From positions 2,161,001 to 2,225,000 of the forward strand of contig NZ_CP036276.1 in the NCBI RefSeq assembly GCF_007747995.1: a stretch of DNA of 64,000 nt, in the 5' to 3' direction. The stretch is from Symmachiella dynata (GTDB taxonomy: Bacteria > Planctomycetota > Planctomycetia > Planctomycetales > Planctomycetaceae). Shown here piece after piece: positions 33,079 through 50,901 of this stretch (within the stretch, counting starts at the first letter, position 1; each line of letters opens with the position of its first letter). The notes beneath the pieces were generated by a model. It was not told the DNA's origin, ran no database searches, and saw only the letters and a list, made by a program, of their open reading frames with translations. The translations under genes and the position numbers were made by a program.

Positions 33079-34353
33079 TCACGGATTGGGTTCCAAGGCG
33101 GCGGCCCGGGCGACATCGGCTTCCATAACGTCCGGTTGGCCACTCCGAGGGGGATCGCGAAACATGACCGCAAACAGAACCATGATGACCCCGGCTGCGA
33201 TGGCGGGACCGGTCCACAATTGTTGCCAATTCACAACAGCTGCTTCCCCTTCGCCGGTGGTGAAAAAGACTTCGACAGCACCGGCGACTTGTGCGCCGAT
33301 CAGCATTCCCAGCCCCAATGTGAACAGAACGAGCATACCTTGTGCCTGGCTGCGGATCGCCTTGGGGGCGACGTTGTCGGTATAGATTTGTCCGGTGACG
33401 AAAAAGAAGTCGTAGCAAATCCCGTGTAGGACGATTCCGCCGATGAGCATCCAGACGACGCCATCATTGGCACCCAGTGCAAACAGTCCATAGCGAACCA
33501 CCCAAGCCAGCATGCCGACCAGCAACATTTTTTTAACGCCCAGCTTCGAGAAGAAGAGCGGCATGATGAGCATGAAGATCACTTCCGACAATTGGCCAAA
33601 CGACATTTTGAAAGCGGGATTCGCCAGTCCAGCGGTCGTAATGAATTTTGTCGCGAGCTGATAATAAAACGCGAGTGGAATGCAGATGAGAAACGAACTG
33701 ATCATGAAGATCAGGTAGGAAGGTTGTTTCAACAGCACCAACGCGTCGACACCGAGCAACTCACGTACGGTGATTTTTTGACCCGCGGCCGGCGGCGGGG
33801 TGTGCGGCAAAAAGAAACTGTAGATGCCCATAGTAAACGATGCGCCGGCGGCAATCTGAAACGGCATGATGCCTGTGTCCCAGCCACCTCCACTGATGAC
33901 AAATCCAGCGGCGATCCAGCCGAAGGTGCCGAACACGCGAATCAAGGGGAATTGTTTTTCCGAGTTGGTCATGTTTTGCATGGCGACGGAATTAGTCAGC
34001 GCCAGTGTGGGGAAATAGCAAAGCATATAACCAAACAAGGCGAGGTTGATCATCAATGGTGTTGCGGGGTTGGCTTCGTTCATGAGCGAGACGGCCAGCA
34101 TCATGAATCCGCCGCCGGCGAGATGCATCACGCCCAGCACGCGCTCCGAGGCAAAAAAGCGGTCGGCGATCATGCCCACGAAGAAGGGGGAAATGATGCC
34201 GGCGATGGGACCGACGCTGTAGGTCCAGGCGATTTCTCCACCGGCAAAACCGATCTTACCCAAATACAAATAGGCGGTGACGTACCAGGAACCCCAAATA
34301 AAGAATTGCAGGAACATCATTGCCGAAAGACGTGCACCGACCAGGGCGTGCAT
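33079..34353 (-). CDS. MFS transporter, nucleoside permease-like (second copy)
   Basis: The start is ATG 34353 ([25 protein letters not shown]), with GAGG 9 nt upstream. The longer frame is non-coding. 424 residues with 12 TM segments: [18 protein letters not shown] and the [20 protein letters not shown] block mirror the neighbouring MFS protein. The two transporters are related to each other in order and motif. Substrate unknown; the nucleoside link is by family resemblance. Confidence 0.8.
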
Positions 34354-34587
34354 GTGGATATCCTCGTATGTAGATCTAGTAGAGTCCGGGTATGGCGTCT
34401 CGCTCGGCCCGATACCTTTGCCGAAGTGCGCATCTTGCCACATAGATTCGCAGGACATAGAGCGCATTGCGGGACCGATGTTCAGATCATGTCGATCCTA
34501 CGGCCATCAAGCAAGCATGAATCGCAATTCGTCGCGAAAAAAATCGCGTGAATCTTGCTAGGTGGGGAGCGTGAGCGGAGTCGCGAT

Positions 34588-36705
34588 TCAGCGGACTTTA
34601 CCGGCTGGTTCACTAGCCAGGACGGCGGGAACGCGCATGAGACCTACGGGTTGGCCGTTACGGCCACCGCGATAGTCAAAGCCACGGTCCTGACCATTGA
34701 GTTGCCAGCGGACTTGGAATTCGTCTGTTTCGGCATTGTAGGCGGTCTGTCCCGCGACAATGTCCGCCTGGGGGCCGGTCAAGCTGAACAGCGTGACGTA
34801 GAGTACCTGTTTGCCGTGGGTTCGCAGTTCGACCGCAATATTGGGAGTCATTTCATTTGCAGCCAAACTGGTCCAACCTTGCAGTCGCGGCGTGGTTTGT
34901 CCTTTGATGAGCTGCATCTCCAAGCCATCGCCGGGGGCCAGCGGAAGGACATTGAGCGCGGTCTCGGATTCGGGTAGCGCGGCGGAAATGCCTCGTCCGG
35001 AAATCGGGTGGAAGTTTAAGTCCGGGTCGAAGTGAAAGCATTGTGCGAAATCGTGTGACTGTGGCGAGGTGAGGCGATCGATGACCGCCAGCCATTGACC
35101 GGGGCGAAGCACCAAGATGCGGCGCTGGTATGTGTCGAAGTCCTGGGTGCGGTCGACGGCCGCTTCGACAAAATAGGCCCCATCGAACTCGCCGCCGGCC
35201 ACGATGGCCGATCCAAACGCGTCTTTGCGTTCGCGACTGTAGTCGCGTCCGTCGATTTCGACCGTGTTATGCGCTCGGGTGCTTTCGACGTATCGGCGAT
35301 GCGGGTGATCATATTTGTAGGAAAACCGCCCGCTATCGATCAACAACGTCCGTCCCAACTCCGACCACTCAAAGGTCAAATCGTCGGCGTGTTTGTGTGT
35401 TCCCGAATGAAACGCGGCGGAGAAATGCAGATAGGAGGCTTCCCGCCAGGGGCGATGGTCCCAGGCATCGCGAAACATGGCGTAGCCCGACTTGGGAAAG
35501 ATGCGATAGTTTTCCGCCGGCGGAACGCCCTGGGTTCCCTGGCTGATGAGGTATTGCAGTTGAGGGTCATCGGGATACAGGATGCGGTCGACGGTCGGTG
35601 TGCGGTCACTGTCGCCGGCGCGGCATAGATCGCCGTTGGGGTGTGACATCCAGACAATGTTTTTTCTGGCGCGGTGGAATAGGTCCAGCAGATTCTGATC
35701 CTCGATCAAATCTTGCTCTTCCAACAAGCCGAGCGTATTGACCAAGGCGAGATGATAAAACGGCGAATGTTCGCGGTGGATGCCTTCTTCGGTGAAATGC
35801 TCGTGAAGCATTTTTTGAAGTCCGGCATTGGCGAACCGATGGAACTCACCAGCGCCATTGAGTTGTGGAACCGCTTTGGCCATGGCGAGTAAACCGACCA
35901 ATTGATAAAACCCGTGATTGGTCGTCCAGGTGATTTGCTCGGGGTCAATTAATTTCAGCCCATGCAGCCGCGCAGCAATGAATAATTCCAGCAGACGGTT
36001 GTCGTCGAGCAGGTTTTTGCGAAGGTTGGCGTCGATGAGTTTGCCCAAAAAAGCGGCGCGGCGTCCGATGGCCATATCGTACCAAGCGAGCGGATTTTCG
36101 GATTCGTTGAGGACGTGCTGTTCGATCCAGTCGAGGGCGATTCGATTGGCCATGACCAGGTAGTGGTCGCGGCCGGTTTGGTCGTAGGCCAGTAGCAACG
36201 GCTCAAGAGGATGCCAAGAGTTCAACCACATCCGCCAACTCGTGTCGTGATGCGGATCAGCGGCCCAATCCATGGGCGTTGCCAGTGAGTACGGCGCCCG
36301 TCGCCCGATTTTCCAACCTTCGCGGATCGTGCGGTCGGCGACTCTCACGATTTTCTGGGGGGACATCCGTGACAAGCCATGCGGCAACACCGGCCGTTCC
36401 GGGTGCTGGGCCTGGATTTGGCGGATTTCAGTGAGCGCTGCACTCCAGTCGTGTTGAGCAACCGCGTCGCCTACGGGCGGGCGTTGTGGCTGCGCGGTCT
36501 CTAGTAATTTGCGCAGCGCGTCGGTCTGTATTGTGGGGGATGTCGCGGTGATGTCGCGGGGGAGGCGTTTGGCAAACTCGGCGAATCTTTGCGCAGCGTT
36601 GGCTTTGTCATTGGTCTGCCGGGACAGAAAAATGATGACGAATACGCCAACGATCATCACCGTCACAGCGGCTACGGTTCGATAACGACGGATGCATCCT
36701 TGCAT
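34588..36705 (-). CDS. Heparinase II/III-like polysaccharide lyase, copy 1
   Basis: The start is set at ATG 36705 (MQGCIRRYRTVAAVTVMIVG), with AGGA 9 nt upstream; a GTG at 36729 gives a longer form. The 705-residue protein has an N-terminal TM or signal anchor, an alpha/alpha-toroid and a heparinase II/III beta-sandwich. Motifs in order: TTNHGFYQLVGLL near residue 263, EHSPFYHLALV near 313, HSGTHKHADDLTFEW near 435, and AHNTVEIDG near 478. Such enzymes cleave uronic-acid-containing polymers by beta-elimination. It is the last of three tandem paralogs and is 30 bp after copy 2. Confidence 0.9.
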   Translation of the reverse strand: MQGCIRRYRTVAAVTVMIVGVFVIIFLSRQTNDKANAAQRFAEFAKRLPRDITATSPTIQTDALRKLLETAQPQRPPVGDAVAQHDWSAALTEIRQIQAQHPERPVLPHGLSRMSPQKIVRVADRTIREGWKIGRRAPYSLATPMDWAADPHHDTSWRMWLNSWHPLEPLLLAYDQTGRDHYLVMANRIALDWIEQHVLNESENPLAWYDMAIGRRAAFLGKLIDANLRKNLLDDNRLLELFIAARLHGLKLIDPEQITWTTNHGFYQLVGLLAMAKAVPQLNGAGEFHRFANAGLQKMLHEHFTEEGIHREHSPFYHLALVNTLGLLEEQDLIEDQNLLDLFHRARKNIVWMSHPNGDLCRAGDSDRTPTVDRILYPDDPQLQYLISQGTQGVPPAENYRIFPKSGYAMFRDAWDHRPWREASYLHFSAAFHSGTHKHADDLTFEWSELGRTLLIDSGRFSYKYDHPHRRYVESTRAHNTVEIDGRDYSRERKDAFGSAIVAGGEFDGAYFVEAAVDRTQDFDTYQRRILVLRPGQWLAVIDRLTSPQSHDFAQCFHFDPDLNFHPISGRGISAALPESETALNVLPLAPGDGLEMQLIKGQTTPRLQGWTSLAANEMTPNIAVELRTHGKQVLYVTLFSLTGPQADIVAGQTAYNAETDEFQVRWQLNGQDRGFDYRGGRNGQPVGLMRVPAVLASEPAGKVR

Positions 36706-36734
36706 GTTGGTCGATCCTGATTGCGTCACATACG

Positions 36735-38861
36735 TTAGCGTGTGGTTGCGCCTGGTTTTTCGGCGGTCATGGCTGGGGGGCTGAGGAGTTTGAGCGAAAT
36801 ACCTGATTCGCCTTCGTGCAAATCAAAACCCTGGAACGCTCCGTTTGCCTGCCAGCGGACTTGGAGGTTGTGCGGATCTTGATCATCGGGGAGCTGAACA
36901 GGCTGTAGATTCGCCTGCGGCCCGGTCAGCGCGAGTACGGTGATATACCGCACGTCGTTGCCGCTTGTGCGGAGCTCCAGGGCGTAGTTGGGGGTCATAC
37001 GGTTGGCGGCCAGACTGGTCCAGCCTTGCATCCGCGGTTCGGTTTGGCCGCGGATCAGCGTGGCAGTCACCGCATCGCTGGGGGAAAGTGAAAGCACGTT
37101 GAGCACGGTCTTGCTGTTTGGCAAACGCGCGGCAACGCCTCCGGGGGAGGTGTGATGAAACATCAGTTCCGGGCCGAAGTGAAAACATTGCGCGAAATCG
37201 TGTGACTCTGGCGACGTGAGATGGTCGATGACGACCAACCAACGACCGGGGTGAAACACGAGGGTGCGTTTGTGGTGAGTTTTAAAGAATCGCGTGCGAT
37301 TGACTTCGGCGGTGACGAAGTAGGCCCCATCGCTTTCGCCGCCTGCGACGATCGCTGAGCCAAAGGCATCGTTTGTATAACGGCTGAAATTCCGGCCGTC
37401 GATTTCCACCGTATTGTGGGCCCGCGTGCTTTCAACGTATTGACGATTTGGATGATCGTATTTGTAGGAATAGCGACCACTGTCAATCAGTAGGCTGCGG
37501 CCCTGTTCGGACCATTCGAAGGTAAAATCATCGGCATGTTTGTGCGTCCGAGAATGAAAGGCGGCAGAGAAAAATAGATAGGGGGCTTCGCGCCAGGGCC
37601 GGTGCTCCCAAGACCCGCGGAAGACGGCGTATCCCGACTCCTTGAAGATCTGGTGATTGGTTGGCGGTTGGGTTCCTGATTTCCCTTTACTGAGGACGTA
37701 TTGCAACTGGGGATCGTCTGCATACATGATGCGCGCGGCAGCTTGGGTTTGGTCGCCGTCCCCGGCGCGAATCAAGTCGCCATGGGGATGGCACATCCAA
37801 ACTATGTTGCGTCTGGCGAGTTGGAATAATTTTAATGTCTCGTCATCGTCGATCAGCCCGCGTTCGATGAGCAAGCCGAGCGTATTGATTAAGGCGACGT
37901 GATAAAACGGCGAGTGTTCGAGGTGTATGCCTTCATCGCTGAAATGCTGGCTGATCAGTTTGCACAGCCCTTGTTTGGCAAACGGCTTGAATTCTTGCAC
38001 GCCACTTAATTCGGGCGTCGACATGCCCAGCGAGAGGAGTCCGACCAGTTGATAAATTCCGTGATTGGAATGCCAGGCGATTTTGTCCTCGCCGTGCAAT
38101 TCGGTAGCGTGTCGGCGGGCGGCTGTGAACAGTAGCAATAAACGTTCGTTGCTCAACACATCGGTGCGGAGGTTGGCATCGATCAGTTTTCCTAATAACA
38201 ACGCACGGCGGCCGATGGCCATGTCGTACCAAGTGAAAGCATTGCTGTTCTCTGCGACGATGTGTTGGTCGATCCAATCCAGAGCGATGCCGTTGGCGAA
38301 TTTCAGATAGCGCTTGTCGCCCGATTCGTCATAGGCGGCTAAAATCGGTTCGAGAACGCGCCAGGCGTTGAGCCACATCCGCCAGCCCCGGTCGTTGTGC
38401 GGGTTTGCGGCCCAGTCGATGGGTATGGCGACGGGGTAGGGCTCACGTTTGCCGAATCGCCATCCGCCTTGAATCACGCCGTCGGCGACGGTGATGATTT
38501 TTTCCGGGTCTCTCGGAGCCAGTCCGTGTGGAAAAACGGGTCGCTCCGGCGCCTGTTGGTGTAATTCCCGAATCCGCGCAACGGCTGCATCCAGTCCGTC
38601 ACGCTCGGCGATTTCAACAATCTCTTGCAGGGGAGGCTGTGTCGTATCGAGTACTTGGGACAATTGTTTGGCGAGAACCTGATTGGGTGTTTCCGTTTTG
38701 TCCGCGGATTTTGATGCGGCAGTATCGCGTCCCTGGGTGGTCGCCGGAACCTCACCGCTGGTCTGGTTGTGGACAAAGAAAACAACAGCGCCAACCAAAA
38801 CGGCCAGTCTTGCTATTGCGAGGCTGTTGAGTGTGTTGTGTTGAGTGATGCGCTTGGACAT
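36735..38861 (-). CDS. Heparinase II/III-like polysaccharide lyase, copy 2
   Basis: 708 residues from ATG 38861 (MSKRITQHNTLNSLAIARL). A TTG at 38918 that overlaps the previous stop by four bases would add 19 residues; neither has a good ribosome binding site. A signal-anchor helix (LAVLVGAVVFFVHN) comes first. The catalytic blocks are HSNHGIYQLVGLL, EHSPFYHVALI, HSRTHKHADDFTFEW and AHNTVEIDG, as in copies 1 and 3. It is close in sequence to copy 1 and less so to copy 3. It acts presumably in the periplasm or outside the cell. Confidence 0.9.
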   Translation of the reverse strand: MSKRITQHNTLNSLAIARLAVLVGAVVFFVHNQTSGEVPATTQGRDTAASKSADKTETPNQVLAKQLSQVLDTTQPPLQEIVEIAERDGLDAAVARIRELHQQAPERPVFPHGLAPRDPEKIITVADGVIQGGWRFGKREPYPVAIPIDWAANPHNDRGWRMWLNAWRVLEPILAAYDESGDKRYLKFANGIALDWIDQHIVAENSNAFTWYDMAIGRRALLLGKLIDANLRTDVLSNERLLLLFTAARRHATELHGEDKIAWHSNHGIYQLVGLLSLGMSTPELSGVQEFKPFAKQGLCKLISQHFSDEGIHLEHSPFYHVALINTLGLLIERGLIDDDETLKLFQLARRNIVWMCHPHGDLIRAGDGDQTQAAARIMYADDPQLQYVLSKGKSGTQPPTNHQIFKESGYAVFRGSWEHRPWREAPYLFFSAAFHSRTHKHADDFTFEWSEQGRSLLIDSGRYSYKYDHPNRQYVESTRAHNTVEIDGRNFSRYTNDAFGSAIVAGGESDGAYFVTAEVNRTRFFKTHHKRTLVFHPGRWLVVIDHLTSPESHDFAQCFHFGPELMFHHTSPGGVAARLPNSKTVLNVLSLSPSDAVTATLIRGQTEPRMQGWTSLAANRMTPNYALELRTSGNDVRYITVLALTGPQANLQPVQLPDDQDPHNLQVRWQANGAFQGFDLHEGESGISLKLLSPPAMTAEKPGATTR

Positions 38862-38914
38862 GACCGTCAGTTCTTTACGAGGGACTACTGGTGGCGGCGT
38901 TTTGCGTGCGGCGT

Positions 38915-41074
38915 TCAACGTACAATGGCGCCAGGCGCCCGGTTGGCTAGGGGAGGGCGGCTGAGCAGCGTCAGTTTTCCACCCGACTTCAAACGGCGAA
39001 AATCAAAGCCCGCTTCGCCATCGGGCAATTGCCAGCGGACGTGGATCGTGTCGGTTTTTTCGTGCAGCTGTGTGTTTCCCGGACGGAGATTGGCGCGGGG
39101 ATCGCCCAGCCAGAGCAGCGTGATAAAAGTTGCGTTGCGTCCGCGAGTCGTGAAGCCGGCGGCGTGATTCGGGATTAGTTCGCCGTAGTCCAAACTCGTC
39201 CAGCCCTGCAGACGTGGTTGGTGCTGACCGCGTATAAGGGTTTGCCGGAGCGTGGATTGACCGTACAGGGGGATAACTTGGAGTGACTTGTCTTGGACCG
39301 TTAATGGGGCAGTAAAACCAGTGGAGGCTTCGCTGACCTTTAGCTCGGGAGCGAAGTGGAACCATTGCGTGAACTGATGGGAATCGGGCGAGCGAAGTTG
39401 ATCGATCACTGCCAACCACTGCCCCGGTTGAAAAACGAGTATGCGGCGATGCTTGGTCTTGAAGAAACGTTTGCGGTCGACCTCGGCCTCGACAAAGTAG
39501 GCGCCGTCGGCGGTTCCGCCCGCGGTGATCGCCGAACCGAACGCATCGAGCCGATAACGGCTGAAGTCCTGGCCATCGATTTCCACAGTGTTGTGCGCGC
39601 GGGTGCTCATGACATATTGCCGCTGCGGGGATTTTTTGTCGTAGCGAAATTTCCCGCTATCGATGAGCAGTTCCTGCCCTAAGTCAGCCCACTCAAACGT
39701 GAAGTCGTCCGCTTGTTTGTGGGTCCGACTATGAAAACCGGCAGCAAAGAACAGATAGGAACCGTCCGTGTGTGGCGTTTGTTGCCAGTCGCTGCGAAAG
39801 GTGGCGTAACCTGATTTTTGATAAATCTGAAACGCTGTCTCGGGAGGCACGCCCCGTTGGCCGTGGCTGAGCACGAACTCGAGTTGCGGCGAGAGCGGGA
39901 AGAGGATCCGCTCGGCGGCTTGATTGGTATCGCCGTCACCGACGCGTGAAAGGTTTCCGTTGGGGTGCACGTAACTGATGATGTTGGCGCTGGCGGACGT
40001 AAATAGCTTTTGCAGCTGGGCATCGGCCATCAATCCGGTCTCCAGCAGATGCCAAAGGAAGTTTACGAGTTCAACGTGGTAGACCGGCGAATGTTCTTTG
40101 TGGATGCCTTCGGCGGTGAAATGTTTGTTGAAGAGTTTTTTGAGGCTTGTTTGTGCAAATGTGTGGCCGGCTGTCGCTCCGGACAATTCAGGAACAGCGC
40201 GAGTCAATGCGAGCAAGCCGGCGAGTTGCGCTAAGCCGTGGTTGCTGTGCCAGGCAATTTGCGATGCATCGGAGAGGTATTGCACATGGATGCGGGCGGC
40301 AACGAGCAGTTGGATTAGGTCAGCGTCTGTTATTTGAACGGCTGGATCGCCTAAGGCTGCATCGAGGATTTTTGCCAATTGCGCCGCACGGCGACCGGCG
40401 GCCATGTCGTACCAGGCAAAATTATGTTGTTTCGCATCGGTAATATGTTGTCGAGCCCAGTCGACGGCGATGCGTACAGGAAAGGCGAGGTAAGCGGGAT
40501 CGTTTTTGCGTTCGTACAACAACAGGTGCGGATCGAGAAAATGCCAGGCATTCAGCTGGAACCGCCATCCGCGATCATGAAACGGGTCGGCTTGCCAGTG
40601 AATGGGAAAGGACAGCGCGTACGGTGGATACTCTTTGAATGAGAAACCGTGTGCCACGCAAGCGGTTGCCAGGGTGTCGAGATGTTCAGTCGAATCGTTG
40701 AGCGTCTCTTGCGGGAAGACTTGAAGAAAACGTTGCCGCGGTCGTTGGCGATGCCGTGCGCGGAGTTGGTCCAATGCGGCGGCGACGCGATTCAAATCCG
40801 TTGCGCGAAAGATTGGTGCCAAATCTTTATTTTGAGTGTCGAGGACGTGATGCAACAGCCGTGCATTAGCGCGGTCGGCGGGGCCGGCTTTTACGATCCG
40901 GCGGTAGGACGCGAGTTCGTCGGCGACAATGGCGGGCGGATTCTCAGCGGCGACCGCTTCTTGAACGAAGTGCCCAGGTGTTGCCGGCAGCGGCACAATG
41001 ATCCATGCCGCCATCAGCAGCAGGAGAGCGCAATCGCGGCTGGACCTGCTCGAGATGTTAGAAATGGCAATCAA
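38915..41074 (-). CDS. Heparinase II/III-like polysaccharide lyase, copy 3
   Basis: 719 residues; the start is TTG 41074 (MIAISNISSRSSRDCALLLL), chosen because the next codons form a signal segment; the strongest alternative is the Met at residue 21. Motif blocks: HSNHGLAQLAGLL, EHSPVYHVELV, HSRTHKQADDFTFEW and AHNTVEIDG. The conserved HxHxD becomes HKQAD, where copies 1 and 2 have HKHAD, a substitution in the metal/active-site strand worth checking. It starts only 3 bp after the methyltransferase stop codon, so translation is probably coupled. Confidence 0.88.
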   Translation of the reverse strand: MIAISNISSRSSRDCALLLLMAAWIIVPLPATPGHFVQEAVAAENPPAIVADELASYRRIVKAGPADRANARLLHHVLDTQNKDLAPIFRATDLNRVAAALDQLRARHRQRPRQRFLQVFPQETLNDSTEHLDTLATACVAHGFSFKEYPPYALSFPIHWQADPFHDRGWRFQLNAWHFLDPHLLLYERKNDPAYLAFPVRIAVDWARQHITDAKQHNFAWYDMAAGRRAAQLAKILDAALGDPAVQITDADLIQLLVAARIHVQYLSDASQIAWHSNHGLAQLAGLLALTRAVPELSGATAGHTFAQTSLKKLFNKHFTAEGIHKEHSPVYHVELVNFLWHLLETGLMADAQLQKLFTSASANIISYVHPNGNLSRVGDGDTNQAAERILFPLSPQLEFVLSHGQRGVPPETAFQIYQKSGYATFRSDWQQTPHTDGSYLFFAAGFHSRTHKQADDFTFEWADLGQELLIDSGKFRYDKKSPQRQYVMSTRAHNTVEIDGQDFSRYRLDAFGSAITAGGTADGAYFVEAEVDRKRFFKTKHRRILVFQPGQWLAVIDQLRSPDSHQFTQWFHFAPELKVSEASTGFTAPLTVQDKSLQVIPLYGQSTLRQTLIRGQHQPRLQGWTSLDYGELIPNHAAGFTTRGRNATFITLLWLGDPRANLRPGNTQLHEKTDTIHVRWQLPDGEAGFDFRRLKSGGKLTLLSRPPLANRAPGAIVR

Positions 41075-41077
41075 CGT

Positions 41078-42154
41078 CTATTGTGATTTCGGAGGATATT
41101 TGGCGGAGAGTTTGCTGCCGCGAAGTGTGTGAGCGACGTGGCGGAGCAAGCGATAGGTCTTACCAACGGCACGATAGAAGGGGGAGTTCAGTAGGTCGAG
41201 GACCTCTTGAGCGGTCGTTTCGTCCATGGGACGGGACATCGGAAGTCGCTCCGCTGTCGCGCGCAAGAAGGCATCGTTGTGTTTGATTTCTTTGGTCGAG
41301 GTCGGCGCGTCAGATTTTGTGGGTGTGTGTTTATTCAAAATGACGTCGAAAAATTCCGTGGTCAGATCAAACTTGGGATAGCGCGACAACAGGTCGTTGA
41401 AGCGATCATAGAGAGTCTGGTCCAGGGGCCGCTGCGTGAGGTGCTCCCAAATGACGGTGAAACCTAACATCTCGAAGTAGTGCAGATATTGCGCGTAGGT
41501 GAGTGTATTGACCCAAGCGGGGCCTAATGGCTCTTGTCCCAACTGTTCGTAGAATTCGTAGAAGACCGAATCATCGAACAACAGGTGCGACCAAGGGAAA
41601 AAGACTTCGCGGTAGCGGTGCGAGGCGGTCGCGCCGCGGTGCAGGTTGGCCCGTAGATAGAATTTCCCACCGTCGACGAGCAGGTCACGGCAGGTTTGCA
41701 GGAGTGTATACGGGTGCTGGACGTGCTCCCAGACGACCAGCGAGACGATTCGGTCGAATGACTCGGGAGCTAAGTCGTGTCCTTCAGAGATGTCGGCATT
41801 GATGTACCGCAGGTTTTCACAGTCGAGATCTTTCCACGCACTTCGCACCTCAATGTCGACCCCGACGACGTCGCATTCATATTCCGTTGCGAGCACGTGC
41901 GAAAGGTACCCGTGGCCGCAGCCGACTTCTAAAACGCGTTGTCCCCGCATGCCGATCCGTTTATCGAGCTTTTCCGCCCAACGCCGGGCGCCATCTAATC
42001 GCGAAGAATCGGCCTTGGGCCGCGGCGCGGGGATGATTGGTTTGTCCTTGTATTCTTCATTGAGCTGTTGAAACAGTTCGAGGTTGAACTGTCGGATGCC
42101 CGGCTGGGGATTGAAGTTCCGCCCGATCGTTTGTTGCTCGGCCACAGCTGTCAT
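41078..42154 (-). CDS. Class I SAM-dependent methyltransferase
   Basis: The start is ATG 42154 (MTAVAEQQTIGRNFNPQPGI), with AAGGGA 9 nt upstream. 358 residues. The SAM-binding motif is VLEVGCGHGYLSHVL (about residues 79-93), followed by VVGVDIE and SFDRIVSLVVWEHVQHP. The context (first gene of the lyase unit, divergent from wecB) suggests it modifies a sugar or polymer, but the substrate is not visible. Confidence 0.88.
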   Translation of the reverse strand: MTAVAEQQTIGRNFNPQPGIRQFNLELFQQLNEEYKDKPIIPAPRPKADSSRLDGARRWAEKLDKRIGMRGQRVLEVGCGHGYLSHVLATEYECDVVGVDIEVRSAWKDLDCENLRYINADISEGHDLAPESFDRIVSLVVWEHVQHPYTLLQTCRDLLVDGGKFYLRANLHRGATASHRYREVFFPWSHLLFDDSVFYEFYEQLGQEPLGPAWVNTLTYAQYLHYFEMLGFTVIWEHLTQRPLDQTLYDRFNDLLSRYPKFDLTTEFFDVILNKHTPTKSDAPTSTKEIKHNDAFLRATAERLPMSRPMDETTAQEVLDLLNSPFYRAVGKTYRLLRHVAHTLRGSKLSAKYPPKSQ

Positions 42155-42576
42155 TCTGAGATTCCCTTTAGGTTCGCAGAGCCGCCGAGAGGCAGCACTG
42201 GGTGGTATGCGGCACGGTGACAAGGCATTTCGTGCGGTCCGGCCAATGGAAAAACCGAATCCGCAGTGCGGAGTCGCCATTCGCCGGCAAAATGAGCAAA
42301 AAACGGCGGCGGAGTATGCCAGCGACCCCGTTTTGAGTCAATCCCGCTTAGGTTGGCGCGGTGGTTTTATGCGGGGACTCGTTATTTCAAATCTGGCCTT
42401 GCCTTGATTCAACAACCCGTATAAATTCCCCGCCGCTTTATCTTGGATTGACGACCGGTTCAACGCATGGATGGGTTGAGATTAACTGCCGGTCGCCGGG
42501 ATCGAAGCGTCCACATCGCAAAAAAACTAATTTCGCGTGCTCATGCACGAGGTCCTTAAGGGGAAGGGATGCCTCT
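42155..42576. other. Divergent promoter region between lyase and export units
   Basis: 422 bp without a gene. A possible plus-strand promoter has TTGCCT (42399-42404), a 15-bp spacer, TATAAA (42420-42425). AAGGGGAAGGG lies at 42558-42568 before the wecB start. The region is the likely control point of both halves of the polysaccharide locus. Confidence 0.4.
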
Positions 42577-43731
42577 TTGAACCGTCTTCGCCCACTGCTT
42601 ATCGTCGGGACGCGCCCCGAAGCCATCAAGATGAGTCCCGTCATTAAGGAGTGTCGGGATCGCCCCCGCGAAATCGATGCGATCGTCTGTTCCACCGGAC
42701 AGCATCGTGAAATGCTCCAACAGGTGGCAGACTACTTTGAAATCAAAATTGATCTCGACCTGGGATTGATGCGGCCCAATCAAACGTTGGCCGGATTAAC
42801 AGCGCGGTGTCTGACCGGGCTGGAAGATGCGATCAACAAATACAATCCCGACTGCGTGGTCGCTCAGGGCGATACCACAACGGTGATGGCGGCCTCCTTA
42901 GCGGCGTTTTATCACCGGATTCCCTTTGTGCATGTTGAAGCTGGTCTACGGACGGGCGATCTTCAAGCGCCGTGGCCGGAAGAGATGAACCGCCGCGTGG
43001 CGGGGATTGTCGCCGATTTGCATTGTGCCCCCACGCAGCGTGCCGCCGATGCTCTGTTGAGCGAAGGGACGCGGCCTGACATTGTGCAGGTGAGTGGAAA
43101 CACAGTCATCGACGCTTTGTTGTGGACCGTCGCTCGCGAGCGCAACAACGCCGAGCAATGGGAAGAGAAATACGCATTTTTACAAGACCGGCGAATGGTG
43201 CTGATCACCGGTCATCGTCGCGAAAACTTTGGCGGCGGATTTGAAAACATTTGCCAAGCGATCTCGACCTTGGCGGCTGATTTCCCTGAGACGGATTTCG
43301 TTTATCCGGTGCACTTAAACCCCAACGTCCAGGCTCCCGTTAAGAGCGTACTGGGCGCGCTGAGCAATGTGCATCTGGTGGCACCGGCGCCGTATCCCGA
43401 GTTTGTGTGGTTGATGGATCGTTCGTCCGTCATCTTGACCGACTCCGGCGGCGTGCAGGAGGAAGCTCCTTCGCTGAAGAAACCGGTGTTGGTGATGCGG
43501 GATACGACCGAACGTCCCGAAGCTGTCGAAAGCGGCGCTGTGGAACTGGTGGGAACATCGATCGAAGCGATTACGCAGGGTGTCTCCACACTGCTGTCCG
43601 ATGCTGCGGAGTATTCCAAACGGCAGATCGATGACAACCCGTATGGCGATGGGCGGGCGGCGCGGCGGATTGTGGACGGCATGCTGGCCATGTCGTGGCA
43701 ATCGACACAAACACTGCGACGGGCAGGTTAA
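42577..43731 (+). CDS. wecB: UDP-N-acetylglucosamine 2-epimerase (non-hydrolysing)
   Basis: Interconverts UDP-GlcNAc and UDP-ManNAc in the cytoplasm. The start is TTG at 42577, preceded by AAGGGGAAGGG at 42558-42568; from here the protein is 384 residues, the usual size, and starts at the fold (NRLRPLLIVGTRPEAIKMSP). The conserved blocks are STGQHREML, HVEAGLRTGD (119-128), PEEMNR (134-139) and TDSGGVQEEAP. Upstream in-frame sequence has no family similarity. It pairs with wecC 75 bp downstream. Confidence 0.94.
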   Translation: MNRLRPLLIVGTRPEAIKMSPVIKECRDRPREIDAIVCSTGQHREMLQQVADYFEIKIDLDLGLMRPNQTLAGLTARCLTGLEDAINKYNPDCVVAQGDTTTVMAASLAAFYHRIPFVHVEAGLRTGDLQAPWPEEMNRRVAGIVADLHCAPTQRAADALLSEGTRPDIVQVSGNTVIDALLWTVARERNNAEQWEEKYAFLQDRRMVLITGHRRENFGGGFENICQAISTLAADFPETDFVYPVHLNPNVQAPVKSVLGALSNVHLVAPAPYPEFVWLMDRSSVILTDSGGVQEEAPSLKKPVLVMRDTTERPEAVESGAVELVGTSIEAITQGVSTLLSDAAEYSKRQIDDNPYGDGRAARRIVDGMLAMSWQSTQTLRRAG

Positions 43732-43806
43732 TAAAAGGTACGATCGACCATTGACGACAACTCGTGTCAAAAACTTTATACACCTCCGACTGAATGAGGG
43801 AATTTC

Positions 43807-45093
43807 GTGACTTCTGAATTGCAATCGCACAAAGATACGGACGCCGTTTCTGAGTCGCGCTCCGGCGGACAAGGACAGGGCTTGTTTCCCACCGCATCAG
43901 TGTGCGTGGTTGGGTTAGGATACATTGGATTACCGACAGCCAGCATTTTGGCCAGCAAGGGGTATCAAGTCGCCGGTGTGGATGTTCGCGAAGAGGTCGT
44001 GGAGACGATCAATCGTGGCGAAATTCATATCGAGGAACCGGATCTGGACGTGCTTGTCAAAGCGGTGGTAGCCAACAATCGGCTCAAGGCGATTCGCGAG
44101 CCGCAACCGGCAGATGTGTTTATCATTTGCGTACCCACACCATTCACCGGCGATCATAAACCGGATCTGTCGTATGTCGAAAAGGCATCCAAAGCGATTC
44201 GGCCGCATGTGCGTCCGGGCAATCTGATCATTCTAGAGTCGACGAGTCCTCCACGGACGACTGAAGATGTCGTTGCCAAGCATGCGGTACCCGATGGCAT
44301 GGTGGTCGGCAAAGATGTGTTCGTCGCGCATTGTCCGGAACGTGTTTTGCCGGGGCGGATTTTGATTGAAGCGGTGGAAAACGACCGTGTTATTGGCGGC
44401 ATGACACCTGCTTGCACGCAAAAAACGAAGAGTTTTTATCAGTCATTCGTCACCGGCGAAGTCATGGCGACGACAGCGGTGTCGGCCGAATTGACCAAAT
44501 TGGTGGAAAACTCGTTCCGCGATGTGAATATCGCGTTTGCCAATGAGTTGTCGATTTTGTGCGATCATTTTGATGTCGATACGTGGGAAATCATCGAGAT
44601 GGCAAACCGCCATCCGCGGGTGAATATTCTCAGCCCGGGGCCGGGTGTGGGTGGCCACTGCATCAGCGTCGACCCTTGGTTTTTAGTCGATGCCGCTCCG
44701 GAATTGACGAATTTGATCCGCACGGCTCGCGAAGTCAACGAGAGCAAACCGCAGCATGTGATTAACAAGGTTCTGGAATTGTCCGCGCGATTTACCAATC
44801 CGGTGATCGGTTGTCTGGGGCTGACTTACAAGTCGGATGTCGACGATCTGCGGGAAAGCCCGTCGCTGGATATCACACGCGCGTTGATGAACAGTGACGC
44901 GGGCGAGGTTCTGGCCTGCGATCCGCTGATTACTGAGGATCAGTTTTCGGAATTCCCGTTACACAGCTTGGATGAAGTGCTGAAACGGTCGACGTTGATC
45001 GTGCTGCTGACGGACCATCAACAGTTTCGCGAGATTTCGCCGGCGGTACTGCACGAAAAGGTTGTCGTCGATACGCGCGGAATTTGGCGATAA
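43807..45093 (+). CDS. wecC: UDP-N-acetyl-D-mannosamine dehydrogenase
   Basis: Oxidises UDP-ManNAc to UDP-ManNAcA with NAD, giving an N-acetylated uronic acid donor. 428 residues. The Rossmann motif is GLGYIGLP (36-43), Lys231 and Asn235 lie in AELTKLVENSFRD, and the catalytic cysteine is Cys285 in GVGGHCISVDP. The C-terminal UDP-binding domain has CLGLTYKSDVDDLRESPS. It follows wecB directly, which supports the pathway assignment; UDP-glucose dehydrogenase is a less likely alternative because of this partner. Confidence 0.93.
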   Translation: MTSELQSHKDTDAVSESRSGGQGQGLFPTASVCVVGLGYIGLPTASILASKGYQVAGVDVREEVVETINRGEIHIEEPDLDVLVKAVVANNRLKAIREPQPADVFIICVPTPFTGDHKPDLSYVEKASKAIRPHVRPGNLIILESTSPPRTTEDVVAKHAVPDGMVVGKDVFVAHCPERVLPGRILIEAVENDRVIGGMTPACTQKTKSFYQSFVTGEVMATTAVSAELTKLVENSFRDVNIAFANELSILCDHFDVDTWEIIEMANRHPRVNILSPGPGVGGHCISVDPWFLVDAAPELTNLIRTAREVNESKPQHVINKVLELSARFTNPVIGCLGLTYKSDVDDLRESPSLDITRALMNSDAGEVLACDPLITEDQFSEFPLHSLDEVLKRSTLIVLLTDHQQFREISPAVLHEKVVVDTRGIWR

Positions 45094-45213
45094 TCGCTGC
45101 CTGCGAGGCGGACGGTTCGCCGTTGACTCGGTTTTGCAAGTTGAACTATAAGCCGTCGCCCATCGAGTTGGATTGGCGACGGAAGCACGGATTTTCAGGG
45201 GAAACGGCAGGGC

Positions 45214-46050
45214 ATGGCGCAATCTATCATTGCATTTGATCCGCACTCAGGCACCTCGGTGCGGGCGTTGCCCAACAATTGCTTTCAATTGGCGCGGTTT
45301 TTAGCCAAGGTGCGGCTCACGCTGTGGGTCCGCGACCGTTGGCTGGGGCTGTGGTGGTGGCTGCTGCAACCGATGGCGATGGGCGCGACGTATGTGTTCA
45401 TGGTCCGGTATGCTTTTCCGGGCGGTGCTCGGCCCTTTCATGCCTTGTTTATCATGTGCGCGCTGTTGCCGTGGACCTGCTTTATTGCTGCCACCAATCA
45501 AGCCGGTGCGTCATTTGTCGGCAATAAGAATTTGCTGAAATCCTTCCGCTTTAATTACCTAGCGCTGCCGTTGGCAGAGGTGATGGCGGCCACGTTTCGG
45601 TTTGCCTGTTCGTTTATCGTGTTGGGCATATTGATGCTCTATTACCAGGTGGCGCCAACGTTGCATCTGTTGTGGATTCCGTTGTTACTGGCAGTGCAGT
45701 TCATCTTTATGTTGGGCGTGAGCAATCTCTTGGCGGTGAGCCAGGTGTTTATTCAAGACACGCCGAACGCTTGGCAGGTGGTGAGCCGGATCTGGTTTTA
45801 TGCGAGCCCGTCGTTATACGGATTGGATCGGATTTCGGAACGCATTCCTGCCGATTATCGTTACATCTACAACATCTATATTTTGAATCCGTTTGCCACG
45901 TTATTCACCGCCTATCGAGACGTTGTCATTTATGGTCGCCAGCCGGACTTGTGGATGCTGGGGTATGTCACACTGCTAGGAAGCGTGGTTTTGGCAGTGG
46001 CGATGTTATTGGTCAGGCGGTTGCATGGCGTGCTGCCGATGCATGTTTGA
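45214..46050 (+). CDS. ABC-2 type polysaccharide export permease
   Basis: 278 residues with six TM segments. The N-terminal amphipathic helix and TLWVRDRWLGLWWWLLQPMA are typical of Wzm/TagG/KpsM-type permeases, as is SLYGLDRISERIPADYRYIY in the last loop. It likely exports a polysaccharide or its lipid-linked form across the inner membrane with the next gene's ATPase, 26 bp downstream. ATG 45214 has purine-rich sequence upstream (AGGGGAAACGGCAGGG). Confidence 0.88.
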   Translation: MAQSIIAFDPHSGTSVRALPNNCFQLARFLAKVRLTLWVRDRWLGLWWWLLQPMAMGATYVFMVRYAFPGGARPFHALFIMCALLPWTCFIAATNQAGASFVGNKNLLKSFRFNYLALPLAEVMAATFRFACSFIVLGILMLYYQVAPTLHLLWIPLLLAVQFIFMLGVSNLLAVSQVFIQDTPNAWQVVSRIWFYASPSLYGLDRISERIPADYRYIYNIYILNPFATLFTAYRDVVIYGRQPDLWMLGYVTLLGSVVLAVAMLLVRRLHGVLPMHV

Positions 46051-46076
46051 GTGCGATTTAAGGATTTTTCGCTTCC

Positions 46077-46889
46077 ATGATTCACCTTAAGGATGTGGGC
46101 GTTCGCTGCGGGCGGACGGCTCACCGTGATCGAAATTTTAATCGTCTGCTCAAGCGGACTGCGGGACGGTTGCGCAATGTGTTTGCCAAACAACCGGTCG
46201 AAATCGCGTCGTCGATGACGTCGGAATTTTGGTCGCTGCGGGATGTCTCTTTCGATATCGGCCAAGGGGAGTCCGTGGGCATCGTCGGCACCAACGGCGC
46301 CGGTAAGTCGACTTTGTTGCGGGTCGTGGGTGGGATCTATCGTCCGACGACCGGGCAAGTGACTGTCAATGGAAAAATCACACCGCTGTTGGCGCTGCAA
46401 CATGGATTCAATTCTGAACTGACCGGCATGGAAAACCTGCGAATGGCAGGTATCTTGTTGGGACTAGAACCAGAACAGTTGGAAGAGTTGATTCCGAGCA
46501 TCATCGAATTTACGGAACTCGGAAACTTCATCGACAAACCGGTGCGGACTTATTCCTCCGGCATGCTGGCCCGGTTGGGGTTTGCCGTCTCAACGGCCGT
46601 TGTCCCCGACGTCCTCATTTTGGACGAAGTGATGGGTGTGGGGGATGGAGCGTTCCGCGAGCGTTGCAAAGAACGTTTGGTGACATTGATTGATGAAGCC
46701 AGAATCTTATTACTCTGTTCGCACAATATGAATTATCTAAAAGAACGCTGCGAGCGGGTGATCTGGATGAACCGCGGACAGGTCGAGCTGGATGGTCCCG
46801 TGGATACCGTCTTGGAGCGTTATCAAGAATTTCTGTCCCTAAAGGGCAACCGGGCCGCAGCCACGACGAAACTCAAACAAGCTGGATAA
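46077..46889 (+). CDS. ABC-type polysaccharide export ATPase
   Basis: 270 residues of the Wzt/TagH/RfbE type. Walker A GTNGAGKST (71-79), signature YSSGM (159-163) and Walker B VLILDE (179-184), then the H-loop SHN. The N-terminal region of about 45 residues has a basic stretch before the fold. It lacks the C-terminal carbohydrate-binding domain of long-chain Wzt proteins. It partners the permease gene upstream. Confidence 0.9.
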   Translation: MIHLKDVGVRCGRTAHRDRNFNRLLKRTAGRLRNVFAKQPVEIASSMTSEFWSLRDVSFDIGQGESVGIVGTNGAGKSTLLRVVGGIYRPTTGQVTVNGKITPLLALQHGFNSELTGMENLRMAGILLGLEPEQLEELIPSIIEFTELGNFIDKPVRTYSSGMLARLGFAVSTAVVPDVLILDEVMGVGDGAFRERCKERLVTLIDEARILLLCSHNMNYLKERCERVIWMNRGQVELDGPVDTVLERYQEFLSLKGNRAAATTKLKQAG

Positions 46890-46932
46890 AACAATCGCCA
46901 AAAGCGCGTCGTAGCGAGGATGACTGCTAGTT

Positions 46933-48771
46933 ATGGGAACGAATGGAAGTCAGATGGGCGGGGAGACAATCACAGTGAACGGACCACGCGCGGCAACCGA
47001 TGCAAACAACGGGACGTTAAAGCGACCGCTGCGGGTGATGCATGTCTTGTCGGTCAGTATTCCACACATCAATGGCTATGCGTTGCGTAGCAAATTTATT
47101 GTGGAGACTCAGGCCGAATCCGGACACGTGGAACCGTGTGTGGTGAGCTCTCCCTTTTATCCAGGACTGAAAGGGACGGCGCAGGATTCCGAGATTGAGG
47201 GGATCCCCTATTATCGAGTGGCCAGTCCGCAGGACAAAGGTCTATTCAGCCATCCGCGGCTGCTGCCGTTTGTGCTTTTGCATTGGTCAAAAAACGTCGT
47301 GAATTGGGCAATCCCGATGTTGCGTCGTCAACGCAAAGCCGGTTTACGAGTCACGAGGCATGTCACACGCTTCGTTCAGCGCGTGTCCAAACGTTGTTTA
47401 CGATACATGGTGCGTGTGGCTCGTTGTGCGCGGCGCGTTGTGGCGACTACGGCTAAACTTGTTGAAACAGCGACCGAACCGTTCGTTGGGAAACGCATTC
47501 TCCCGGCCGTACATTTGGTGTTGCGCGTTGGTATGGTGGCCACGTGGCTGGTGTCGCGGCCGTTTGTCTCGACAGCGCAGTTTGTGGGGCGTGAAGCTTA
47601 CAAACTCATCCGCTCTTCGGGGCGTTTTTTGAAATCGCTTGTACGTCCAAACCCAGAGTCGGCGGAGGCGGAGGGCGTGCCGTTGCGAACGCGGTTGATT
47701 CGAAAATTGCAGGACAAGGAAAAGTCGTTGTTGCTGGCGATGTTCGAACGGGAATTAGTCCGACTTTGCAAGCAGGTCCAACCGGACGTGATTCATGTGC
47801 ACAGCCCGTATTTTTGCGGAGTCCCAGCGGTGAAAGCAGGGAAACGCGTCGATATTCCTGTGGTGTATGAAGTCCGCGGGATTTGGGAAGAAAGCGGCGT
47901 TGCACAAGGCAATTTCGAACGCGACAGCGACATCTATCGCATGTGGCGTCGCGAAGAGACATGGGCCATGAAAAACGCCGATGCCGTGACCTGTATCTGC
48001 GATGAGCTGCGTAAAGACATCGTCAGCCGCGGTGTGGATCCACACCGCGTGTTTGTGGCGTCCAATGCGGTCGACTCGACGTTGTTTACGCCGGCGTCAC
48101 ATTCTGCGGCCACCGTCCGGGAGATTCCCGAATCGGTGCTTGAAGTGAAACAGCAGTTGAGCAAAGTCACAATGGGCTACATCGGTAGTATTCGCCCATT
48201 GGAAGGGGTCGACGGGCTTGTGCGGGGAGCCGCCGAGGTCATCCATCGCGGACATGACGTCACTTTGCTTGTCGTTGGTGGTGGCAAGGGGATCAATGAA
48301 CTCCAAGAATTGGCCGAGGAATTGGGCATCGGCGACCGGGCGGTCTTCACCGGCCAAGTGTCGCACGATGAAGTTCAGTTTTATTACGAATTGATCGACA
48401 TCTTTGTCATTAGCCGCCCCGCGAGTCGGGTTGCGAAACTTGTGACACCGCTCAAGCCGCTTGAGGCGATGGCGATGGAAAAACCGTTGATCGTTTCGGA
48501 CCTGCCCGCGCTGCGGGAATTGGTCAACGAGGGCGAGACCGGTTTGATTTATCGCGCTGAAGATTCCGGCGATTTGGCCGATCAGTGCGGCCGCTTGATT
48601 TCTGATGCAGCTCTGCGCGAGCGTTTAGCAAAAACCGCCCGAAATTGGGTTGTAAACGAGCGCAGTTGGAGTCAAACGATCATTCCGCAACTGCATGCCT
48701 ATGCCCATGTCGTTCCCGGATTTTCCGTTCCCCAACCGGTAGAGCAAGACGCGCCAGCTAAGGCTGCTTGA
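46933..48771 (+). CDS. GT4-type glycosyltransferase with basic internal insertion
   Basis: 612 residues. The N-terminal half is a GT-B domain (RVMHVLSVSIPHINGYALRS), but residues about 118-245 are a highly basic, Val/Arg-rich segment (RRQRKAGLRV, RFVQRVSKRCLRYMVRVARC) that is absent from ordinary GT4 enzymes. The fold resumes with PDVIHVHSPYFCGVPAVKAG, VVYEVRGIWEE, a C-terminal glycosyltransferase-1 domain with GYIGSIRPLEGVDGLV and KPLEAMAMEKPLIVSDLPAL. It ends the export unit. Donor and acceptor sugars are unknown. Confidence 0.86.
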   Translation: MGTNGSQMGGETITVNGPRAATDANNGTLKRPLRVMHVLSVSIPHINGYALRSKFIVETQAESGHVEPCVVSSPFYPGLKGTAQDSEIEGIPYYRVASPQDKGLFSHPRLLPFVLLHWSKNVVNWAIPMLRRQRKAGLRVTRHVTRFVQRVSKRCLRYMVRVARCARRVVATTAKLVETATEPFVGKRILPAVHLVLRVGMVATWLVSRPFVSTAQFVGREAYKLIRSSGRFLKSLVRPNPESAEAEGVPLRTRLIRKLQDKEKSLLLAMFERELVRLCKQVQPDVIHVHSPYFCGVPAVKAGKRVDIPVVYEVRGIWEESGVAQGNFERDSDIYRMWRREETWAMKNADAVTCICDELRKDIVSRGVDPHRVFVASNAVDSTLFTPASHSAATVREIPESVLEVKQQLSKVTMGYIGSIRPLEGVDGLVRGAAEVIHRGHDVTLLVVGGGKGINELQELAEELGIGDRAVFTGQVSHDEVQFYYELIDIFVISRPASRVAKLVTPLKPLEAMAMEKPLIVSDLPALRELVNEGETGLIYRAEDSGDLADQCGRLISDAALRERLAKTARNWVVNERSWSQTIIPQLHAYAHVVPGFSVPQPVEQDAPAKAA

Positions 48772-49497: not shown

Positions 49498-50901
49498 ATG
49501 ATGTTGCACCTTGGAAAGCGGTTTGCCGTTGCCGCGTTAATGTGCGTCATTTCCGCAGACGCCCTACGAGCGGAAGAAAAAACCACTGATACCAAACCCG
49601 AAGCGAAGGTCGCCAAAACCGCTGTCGTCGTTGATCCTCTGAATGTTCAGATTGACAAAGCGATCGAAACGACCAGTAAGCGGCAACTGACCGCTGGTGT
49701 GCATACACCGTGGCAGATCATGCACGGTGTCTTGGCGTTGCGGCACGATTTTCACTTAAAGAAAAGCCGCGACAGCAAGACGACCGAGACCATCAAAGCG
49801 ATTGACTGGATGGGCAGCGGCGCATTGCACGACGGGTTGACGCTGTTTGAACGAACACAATTTGGCGGCCGCGCACGACCGTTCACAAAGCCGTATGCTT
49901 TTGAAGGACACGCCAATCAATTCTTCGGCATTTTTGTGATGTCCGACTTGCCGAATGACTTTGCATTCAAGGCGGGCCCCAATGAAGTCTCGATCGATGA
50001 CATGATCGAAAACGCAAAAATGGAAGTGAAGGTCGGTCCGGAAATCACGTGGACCTTGTGGGCGCTGAGCCATTACCTCGACACAAACGCCCAGTGGCGG
50101 AATCGTTACGGCGAAGCTTGGAGCATCGAGCGGATGGTCCAGATTCAAACGCGGGAGTCGGTGATTTCGGCCCCCTGTGGCGGCACCCACGGCCTGTTCG
50201 CGTTGGCTTATGCCCGCAACAAGCATTTGGCGACCGGCGGCAAAATTCGCGGCGTGTGGATGGAAGCGGATCAAAAGATCCAACGCTTTATCGAAGAAGG
50301 CCGCGTGCTGCAAAACCGTGATGGTTCGTTTTCGACCGAGTACTTCCGAGGACGCGGATTCAGTAACGAATTCAACGACCGAATCGCCCACTCGGGTCAC
50401 ATGTTGGAATGGCTGATGATGGCCCTGCCGCAAAGCCGTTTGAAAGAGCCGTGGGTCCGCAACGGACTGAGCCGGTTGGCAAACGATCTGGTCGAGAATC
50501 GCAAGACGGCCGCTGAATGCGGCCCGCTGTACCATGCGTTGCATTCGCTGATCTTGTATCGCTTGCGGACACGTTCGCAGGAATACGGACCGGACAAGCC
50601 GACGTTGTTGGTCAAAATGGAAAAGAAAACCGACGAGTCGCAGAAGCCGGCTGACGAGGAAAAAACAGCGGCCAAACCGACCGAGGAGAAAGCCGCTGAC
50701 AAAAAATCGGCAGAGGCGAAGTCGGACAAGCCGGCAGCTCCCGCGACAGAAGTGTCTGAATCGAAAGTGACCCCGGTGGCCGCGGAAGCGCCGAAGGAAT
50801 CGACTCCGGCAGTGGTCATCGAGGCGCCCGTCACCGACGAGGTTGAGGAAGAATCCACCAGCGAAGCCAAATCGGAAGAACAACCGGCGAAAGCTAACTG
50901 A
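49498..50901 (+). CDS. Secreted conserved planctomycete protein, alpha-helical
   Basis: 467 residues. A Sec signal (MMLHLGKRFAVAALMCVISA) precedes a helical domain (about residues 50-375) with VHTPWQIMHGVLALRHDFHL, ETVSIDDMIENAKMEV-type blocks and CGGTHGLFALAYARNKHLAT. From about residue 380 the tail is low complexity (Glu, Ala, Lys, Pro). The helix-rich central part, with repeated Trp-containing segments, recalls terpene-cyclase or glycosidase alpha/alpha barrels, but no acidic catalytic motif is clear. A strong terminator hairpin lies 28 bp downstream. Confidence 0.68.
   Translation: MMLHLGKRFAVAALMCVISADALRAEEKTTDTKPEAKVAKTAVVVDPLNVQIDKAIETTSKRQLTAGVHTPWQIMHGVLALRHDFHLKKSRDSKTTETIKAIDWMGSGALHDGLTLFERTQFGGRARPFTKPYAFEGHANQFFGIFVMSDLPNDFAFKAGPNEVSIDDMIENAKMEVKVGPEITWTLWALSHYLDTNAQWRNRYGEAWSIERMVQIQTRESVISAPCGGTHGLFALAYARNKHLATGGKIRGVWMEADQKIQRFIEEGRVLQNRDGSFSTEYFRGRGFSNEFNDRIAHSGHMLEWLMMALPQSRLKEPWVRNGLSRLANDLVENRKTAAECGPLYHALHSLILYRLRTRSQEYGPDKPTLLVKMEKKTDESQKPADEEKTAAKPTEEKAADKKSAEAKSDKPAAPATEVSESKVTPVAAEAPKESTPAVVIEAPVTDEVEEESTSEAKSEEQPAKAN

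Follow-up and report, generated by a model that had tools for sequence, protein, structure and literature searches.

Why would a bacterial locus equipped for the synthesis and export of an acidic polysaccharide also carry, in a second unit pointing the other way, three heparinase III-like lyase genes? The question is raised by a stretch of 64,000 nucleotides of Symmachiella dynata (contig NZ_CP036276.1; G000:C1:2161001-2225000), hereafter the window, drawn from a single-contig genome of 7.77 Mb. Its minus-strand unit runs from a methyltransferase gene into the three lyase genes, successive genes being separated by 3, -4 and 5 bases; its plus-strand unit, 422 bases away, consists of wecB, wecC, a Wzm/Wzt-type ATP-binding cassette (ABC) transporter pair and a family-4 glycosyltransferase gene. 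We put at roughly 0.55 the probability that this is a surface-polysaccharide locus with lyases of its own, which act on the N-acetylmannosaminuronic acid (ManNAcA) polymer of the same locus. A preliminary description had named the lyase, wecB/wecC and ABC genes, all of which are present at the coordinates that it gave and in the divergent arrangement. It had also proposed a make-and-trim system for one acidic polymer, and this is supported in part: independent genomes back the functional link of this lyase type with wecB/wecC and an ABC exporter, but trimming is a prediction, the coupling is not obligatory within the genus and the fold would also suit a C5-epimerase.

A rare lyase subfamily and its association with wecB

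Patterns built from the three window lyases were used to scan a collection of 84,980 species genomes, which yielded only five further members of the subfamily, all in alphaproteobacteria; the subfamily is thus rare. One of these species, Brevundimonas lutea, carries two subfamily lyases that flank wecB and wecC, one on each side, and this case prompted a survey of 199 Caulobacteraceae genomes. There, three genomes contain seven subfamily lyases, and each of the seven has a wecB-type gene at a distance of at most 14 kb, a placement with a chance probability of 0.4-2%. Of the 20 other heparinase-like genes, none has such a gene within 20 kb, although fragmented draft assemblies may conceal some cases. 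Without Brevundimonas the comparison stands at two of two genomes versus 0 of 20 (Fisher test, 0.004).

Two of the Caulobacteraceae lyase loci are complete ABC capsule-type loci. The first, in genome G160, holds wecB, wecC, an outer-membrane polysaccharide export (OPX) protein gene, an ABC ATPase gene and a TIGR04063-type glycosyltransferase gene that overlaps a lyase gene; this glycosyltransferase is 35% identical to that of the window, and a second glycosyltransferase-lyase pair in the same genome reaches 37%. The other, in genome G178, likewise has a glycosyltransferase of this type whose gene overlaps that of a lyase, and holds in addition methyltransferases, OPX, an ABC-2 permease, wecC, wecB and a further lyase. 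In a genome from an independent sample of the class (G629), two lyases occur together with a wecB-type gene, and one of the lyases has a methyltransferase on either side. The components of the window locus (wecB, wecC, ABC exporter, type of glycosyltransferase, methyltransferase and several lyases) are thus met again in a distant phylum. Together with the ABC capsule-type loci, the lyase-wecB association supports action of the lyases on the ManNAc-uronate polymer of their own locus. A third lyase of G160 (L104:8771-14008, C46) adjoins a wecB-type epimerase, a pyridoxal phosphate-dependent sugar aminotransferase and a UDP-GlcNAc 3-dehydrogenase-like gene, neighbors that would fit a diacetamido-uronic acid pathway.

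In the tree, the window triplet is monophyletic with support of 100/99 and stands apart from all other sequences, so the trio arose by duplication in the window lineage; judged by the same tree, multiple lyase copies have been reached independently in the different lineages. More distant heparinase-like genes of the phylum, outside the clade of 18 lyase sequences, are found partly in wecB/wecC-type loci (L123, L124) and partly elsewhere. A phage origin of the lyases was considered and rejected, as the phage matches were limited to two remote ones at about 23% identity.

Enzymes, synthesis genes and gene order

The lyase genes occupy positions 34588-36729 (lyase 1, P0001), 36735-38918 (lyase 2, P0002) and 38915-41074 (lyase 3, P0003) of the minus strand, the last two sharing a 4-base overlap. 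Each product contains the Pfam domains Hepar_II_III_N (PF16889) and Hepar_II_III_C (PF07940). The AlphaFold model of lyase 2 (mean predicted local distance difference test score, pLDDT, 86) finds its best fold match in HepC of Pedobacter, a member of polysaccharide lyase family 12 (PL12), with Z 41; the PL17 alginate lyases come next, with Z about 30, and human dermatan sulfate epimerase 1 (6hzn) matches with Z 25.5 over 536 residues. Residues N285, Y339 and H459 of lyase 2 align with Asn240, Tyr294 and His424 of HepC, which we take to be the catalytic residues of that enzyme. This Asn/Tyr/His triad is kept in all three window lyases and is invariant across 25 homologues. The lyases score 48-77 bits against the NCBIfam HepC equivalogs, below both cut-offs (600 and 700), and they are therefore not filed as HepC. 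Because all three begin with a hydrophobic N-terminal segment, they are likely secreted or membrane-anchored.

On the plus strand, wecB (UDP-GlcNAc 2-epimerase; 42577-43731) and wecC (UDP-ManNAc dehydrogenase; 43807-45093) both exceed curated equivalog cut-offs, with 451.9 bits against 210 for TIGR00236 and 531 against 459 for PRK11064, respectively. The open frame of wecB spans 42361-43731, and its probable start is a TTG codon at 42577 preceded by AGGGGAAGGGA. The putative ABC-2 permease (45214-46050) has no Pfam match even at E 5, ABC2_membrane included. In phmmer it aligns with TarG at E 1.5e-4, and its similarity to Wzm is weak (6m96, E 0.012); it is accordingly described as probably of the Wzm/TarG type. 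The ATPase (46077-46889) is of the Wzt/TarH type without the C-terminal sugar-binding domain and comes close to TarH, TagH and Wzt, with E down to 1.6e-56. Thus the predicted supply of UDP-ManNAcA by WecB and WecC and the predicted ABC export, both proposed in the preliminary description, are supported at the level of family membership. The unit ends with the TIGR04063-like family-4 glycosyltransferase (46933-48771).

Three parts had escaped the preliminary description: this glycosyltransferase, the methyltransferase of the lyase unit and a secreted protein. The methyltransferase gene (41078-42154, minus strand) is the first of its unit and lies 3 bases from lyase 3; it encodes a class I S-adenosylmethionine-dependent enzyme matching Methyltransf_11/23/25, with Met43 of the longest frame as the inferred start. 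The secreted protein (49498-50901, plus strand) has no Pfam match, is encoded 726 bases after the glycosyltransferase gene and stays beside the ABC/glycosyltransferase block in three species (95% identity in G001 and 73% in G002, both of the same genus). Scans of the 422-bp divergent intergenic region (42155-42576) for promoters, terminators and repeats gave no signal above chance worth using; its sequence is about 90% identical in G001.

This second species, G001, keeps the entire region in the same gene order at 88-99% identity, the methyltransferase at 88% and lyases 2 and 3 at 91% each. Since the genes on both sides are so conserved, with their order kept, a chance succession of open reading frames does not account for the arrangement. 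The methyltransferase has no close counterpart in G002, where wecB-wecC adjoins lpxD/lpxI-like and polysaccharide deacetylase-like genes (named by eye).

Beyond lyase 1, and starting 120 bp past it on the same strand, lie two major facilitator superfamily (MFS) genes of the Nuc_H_symport family (31578-32945 and 33079-34467), which are 97-98% conserved in G001 despite the loss of lyase 1 there. A DDE_Tnp_1 transposase gene follows at 30131-31366, with none at the equivalent place in G001. Farther away, 19154-20635 encodes a protein with HTTM and vitamin K-dependent gamma-carboxylase lumenal domains, and the gene content of the window also includes the DUF1501 and PSCyt2/PSD1 families, which mark it as planctomycete DNA.

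What the lyases may act on

In the reading that we favor, WecB and WecC would provide UDP-ManNAcA, from which the glycosyltransferase, together with enzymes encoded elsewhere, would build a ManNAcA-containing polymer; the methyltransferase would perhaps cap or decorate it, and the Wzm/Wzt pair would carry it out of the cell. Outside the cytoplasm the polymer would meet the PL12-like enzymes, which may cut its 4-linked N-acetyl-mannosaminuronate residues by beta-elimination and could thereby remove stalled chains, determine chain length or release polymer. The geometry of O-4-linked ManNAcA allows such an elimination. A characterized enzyme with specificity for ManNAcA polymers, of the PL12 type or any other, was not found in the literature searched.

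Several observations weigh against this reading. In G001, lyase 1, the third lyase in unit order, has been lost, with lyases 2 and 3 intact; its remnant (L052:18262-18882) retains a few codons at the start and roughly the final 190, distributed among three frames, and the active-site stretch is deleted. G002 has no lyases at all and carries the permease-ATPase-glycosyltransferase-P0010 block (L061:6708-12246, 59-75% identity) and wecB-wecC (L059:13986-16532, 83% identity) at separate loci, which means that the three modules are separable and that wecBC and the exporter can each do without lyases. The window locus itself has a single glycosyltransferase gene, and Pfam detects no OPX or polysaccharide co-polymerase (PCP) export part among the locus genes; Poly_export proteins are encoded elsewhere in the genome. 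Furthermore, the lyase clade includes ten loci, of which three are not polysaccharide loci: one in Hellea, where a single glycosyltransferase gene adjoins the lyase gene, one in Chelativorans and one in another Caulobacterales bacterium. Finally, the Caulobacteraceae subfamily lyases lack the N-terminal hydrophobic segment, and their site of action may differ. Two wider formulations were rejected on such grounds: a cassette fixed throughout the genus, given the split loci of G002, and an extension to the whole Hepar_II_III family, given the same-clade lyases outside polysaccharide loci.

The enzymes might instead feed the cell on polysaccharides from outside, the adjoining wecBC/export unit being coincidental. 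PL12 and PL17 relatives of known activity are indeed catabolic, two MFS genes lie downstream on the lyase strand and some lyases of the clade are encoded away from polysaccharide loci; however, Pfam scans of the flanking genes revealed no sulfatase, SusCD or uronate-metabolism gene, and in other genomes the lyases are strongly associated with wecB-type genes, so that we regard a role in feeding as unlikely. The same recurrent pairing of lyase and wecB, and the full synteny with G001, speak against another proposal, in which the lyases would have as substrate some other polymer made by the strain and share this site merely through the shuffling of polysaccharide loci. Modules have been shuffled between loci in the genus, as the separate wecBC and exporter of G002 illustrate, and a candidate source of such a polymer exists near 494 kb of the same genome (L054, G000:C1:484000-503999), where a wecB-type gene, glycosyltransferase genes and a fourth heparinase-like gene are found. 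We nevertheless judge this proposal improbable.

A third possibility concerns the reaction and not the polymer. By the same proton abstraction, the three enzymes could act as polymer C5-epimerases converting D-ManNAcA to L-GulNAcA, as dermatan sulfate epimerase does with its own substrate. The human form of that enzyme is among the fold matches; in Caulobacteraceae the genes of the homologues overlap those of glycosyltransferases, and their products lack a signal or membrane segment. The lyases at L100-L104 (G160, G178), L112 (G629) and L048 all lack a hydrophobic N-terminus, three of them overlapping the end of a TIGR04063-type glycosyltransferase gene. These features suggest a cytoplasmic, perhaps epimerase, role for the segment-less enzymes of Caulobacteraceae and G629: should they indeed work in the cytoplasm, a lyase would ruin the polymer ahead of the ABC exporter, and epimerization, which would not, would fit better. 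For the window enzymes, however, a real lyase, HepC, is by far the better fold match, the aligned triad is the lyase triad and all three copies carry N-terminal hydrophobic segments; we therefore think it rather doubtful that they are epimerases.

The reading that the window lyases cut the polymer of their own locus can be extended, tentatively and at somewhat less than even odds, to the subfamily as a whole. The PL12-like subfamily would then be a dedicated part of wecBC/ABC systems across phyla, made up of lyases or C5-epimerases specific for ManNAcA polymers, with two or three copies serving several linkages or methylation states.

Relation to known systems

Heparinase-like genes are common in the annotations of synthesis loci, where, as far as we found, their function is a prediction. 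A small subfamily tied to UDP-ManNAcA genes predicts a substrate and narrows the question to whether such enzymes cut, release or epimerize an acidic polymer that the cell itself makes. The subfamily might also yield tools for cutting ManNAcA-containing polymers. The pairing itself is already on public record, and the suggestion in the preliminary description that the layout had not been described is not supported. Plasmid p90204 of Paracoccus fistulariae is annotated with heparinase II/III, wecB, wecC and glycosyltransferases in a row, and plasmids of Cytobacillus and Manganitrophus carry arrangements of a related kind. The Paracoccus locus differs from the window in having one lyase, about 23% identical, with transposases on either side, and in showing no ABC polysaccharide exporter over the part examined. 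In the K17 capsule locus of Vibrio parahaemolyticus, wecB, wecC and hepC stand together, all duplicated (PMC7829505), a likeness in which a heparinase-named gene is compared by gene name alone. No experimental account of a heparinase-like gene paired with wecB/wecC was found in the literature searched, where searches for a precedent in the Vi-antigen lyase VexL gave nothing either, so that this precedent is not used. What is added here is a defined subfamily with a measured wecB association, its three-copy planctomycete version and a prediction of its substrate.

Among characterized enzymes, the heparin-sulfate lyase HepC (PL12) of Pedobacter heparinus and Bacteroides shares the two-domain fold, the triad and both Pfam domains, whereas its identity to the window lyase is 17% and the window lyases belong to a locus for synthesis rather than degradation. 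Human dermatan sulfate epimerase 1 resembles them in fold and in altering uronate within a polymer under synthesis; it differs in its animal glycosaminoglycan substrate and in sequence (11% identity). A make-and-clear principle with a lyase encoded among the synthesis genes of its own polymer is known for alginate in Pseudomonas, where AlgL is encoded with the synthesis and export genes and clears the periplasm of alginate (PMC8829089, PMC5099689). The window likewise places putative uronate lyases beside synthesis and export genes, and AlgL works in the periplasm on the polymer of its own locus. AlgL is a PL5 enzyme within a synthase-dependent system, whereas the window has three PL12-like paralogues in a divergent unit beside an ABC-dependent system; by analogy, AlgL is the best functional parallel to the predicted role of the window lyases, not a homologue.

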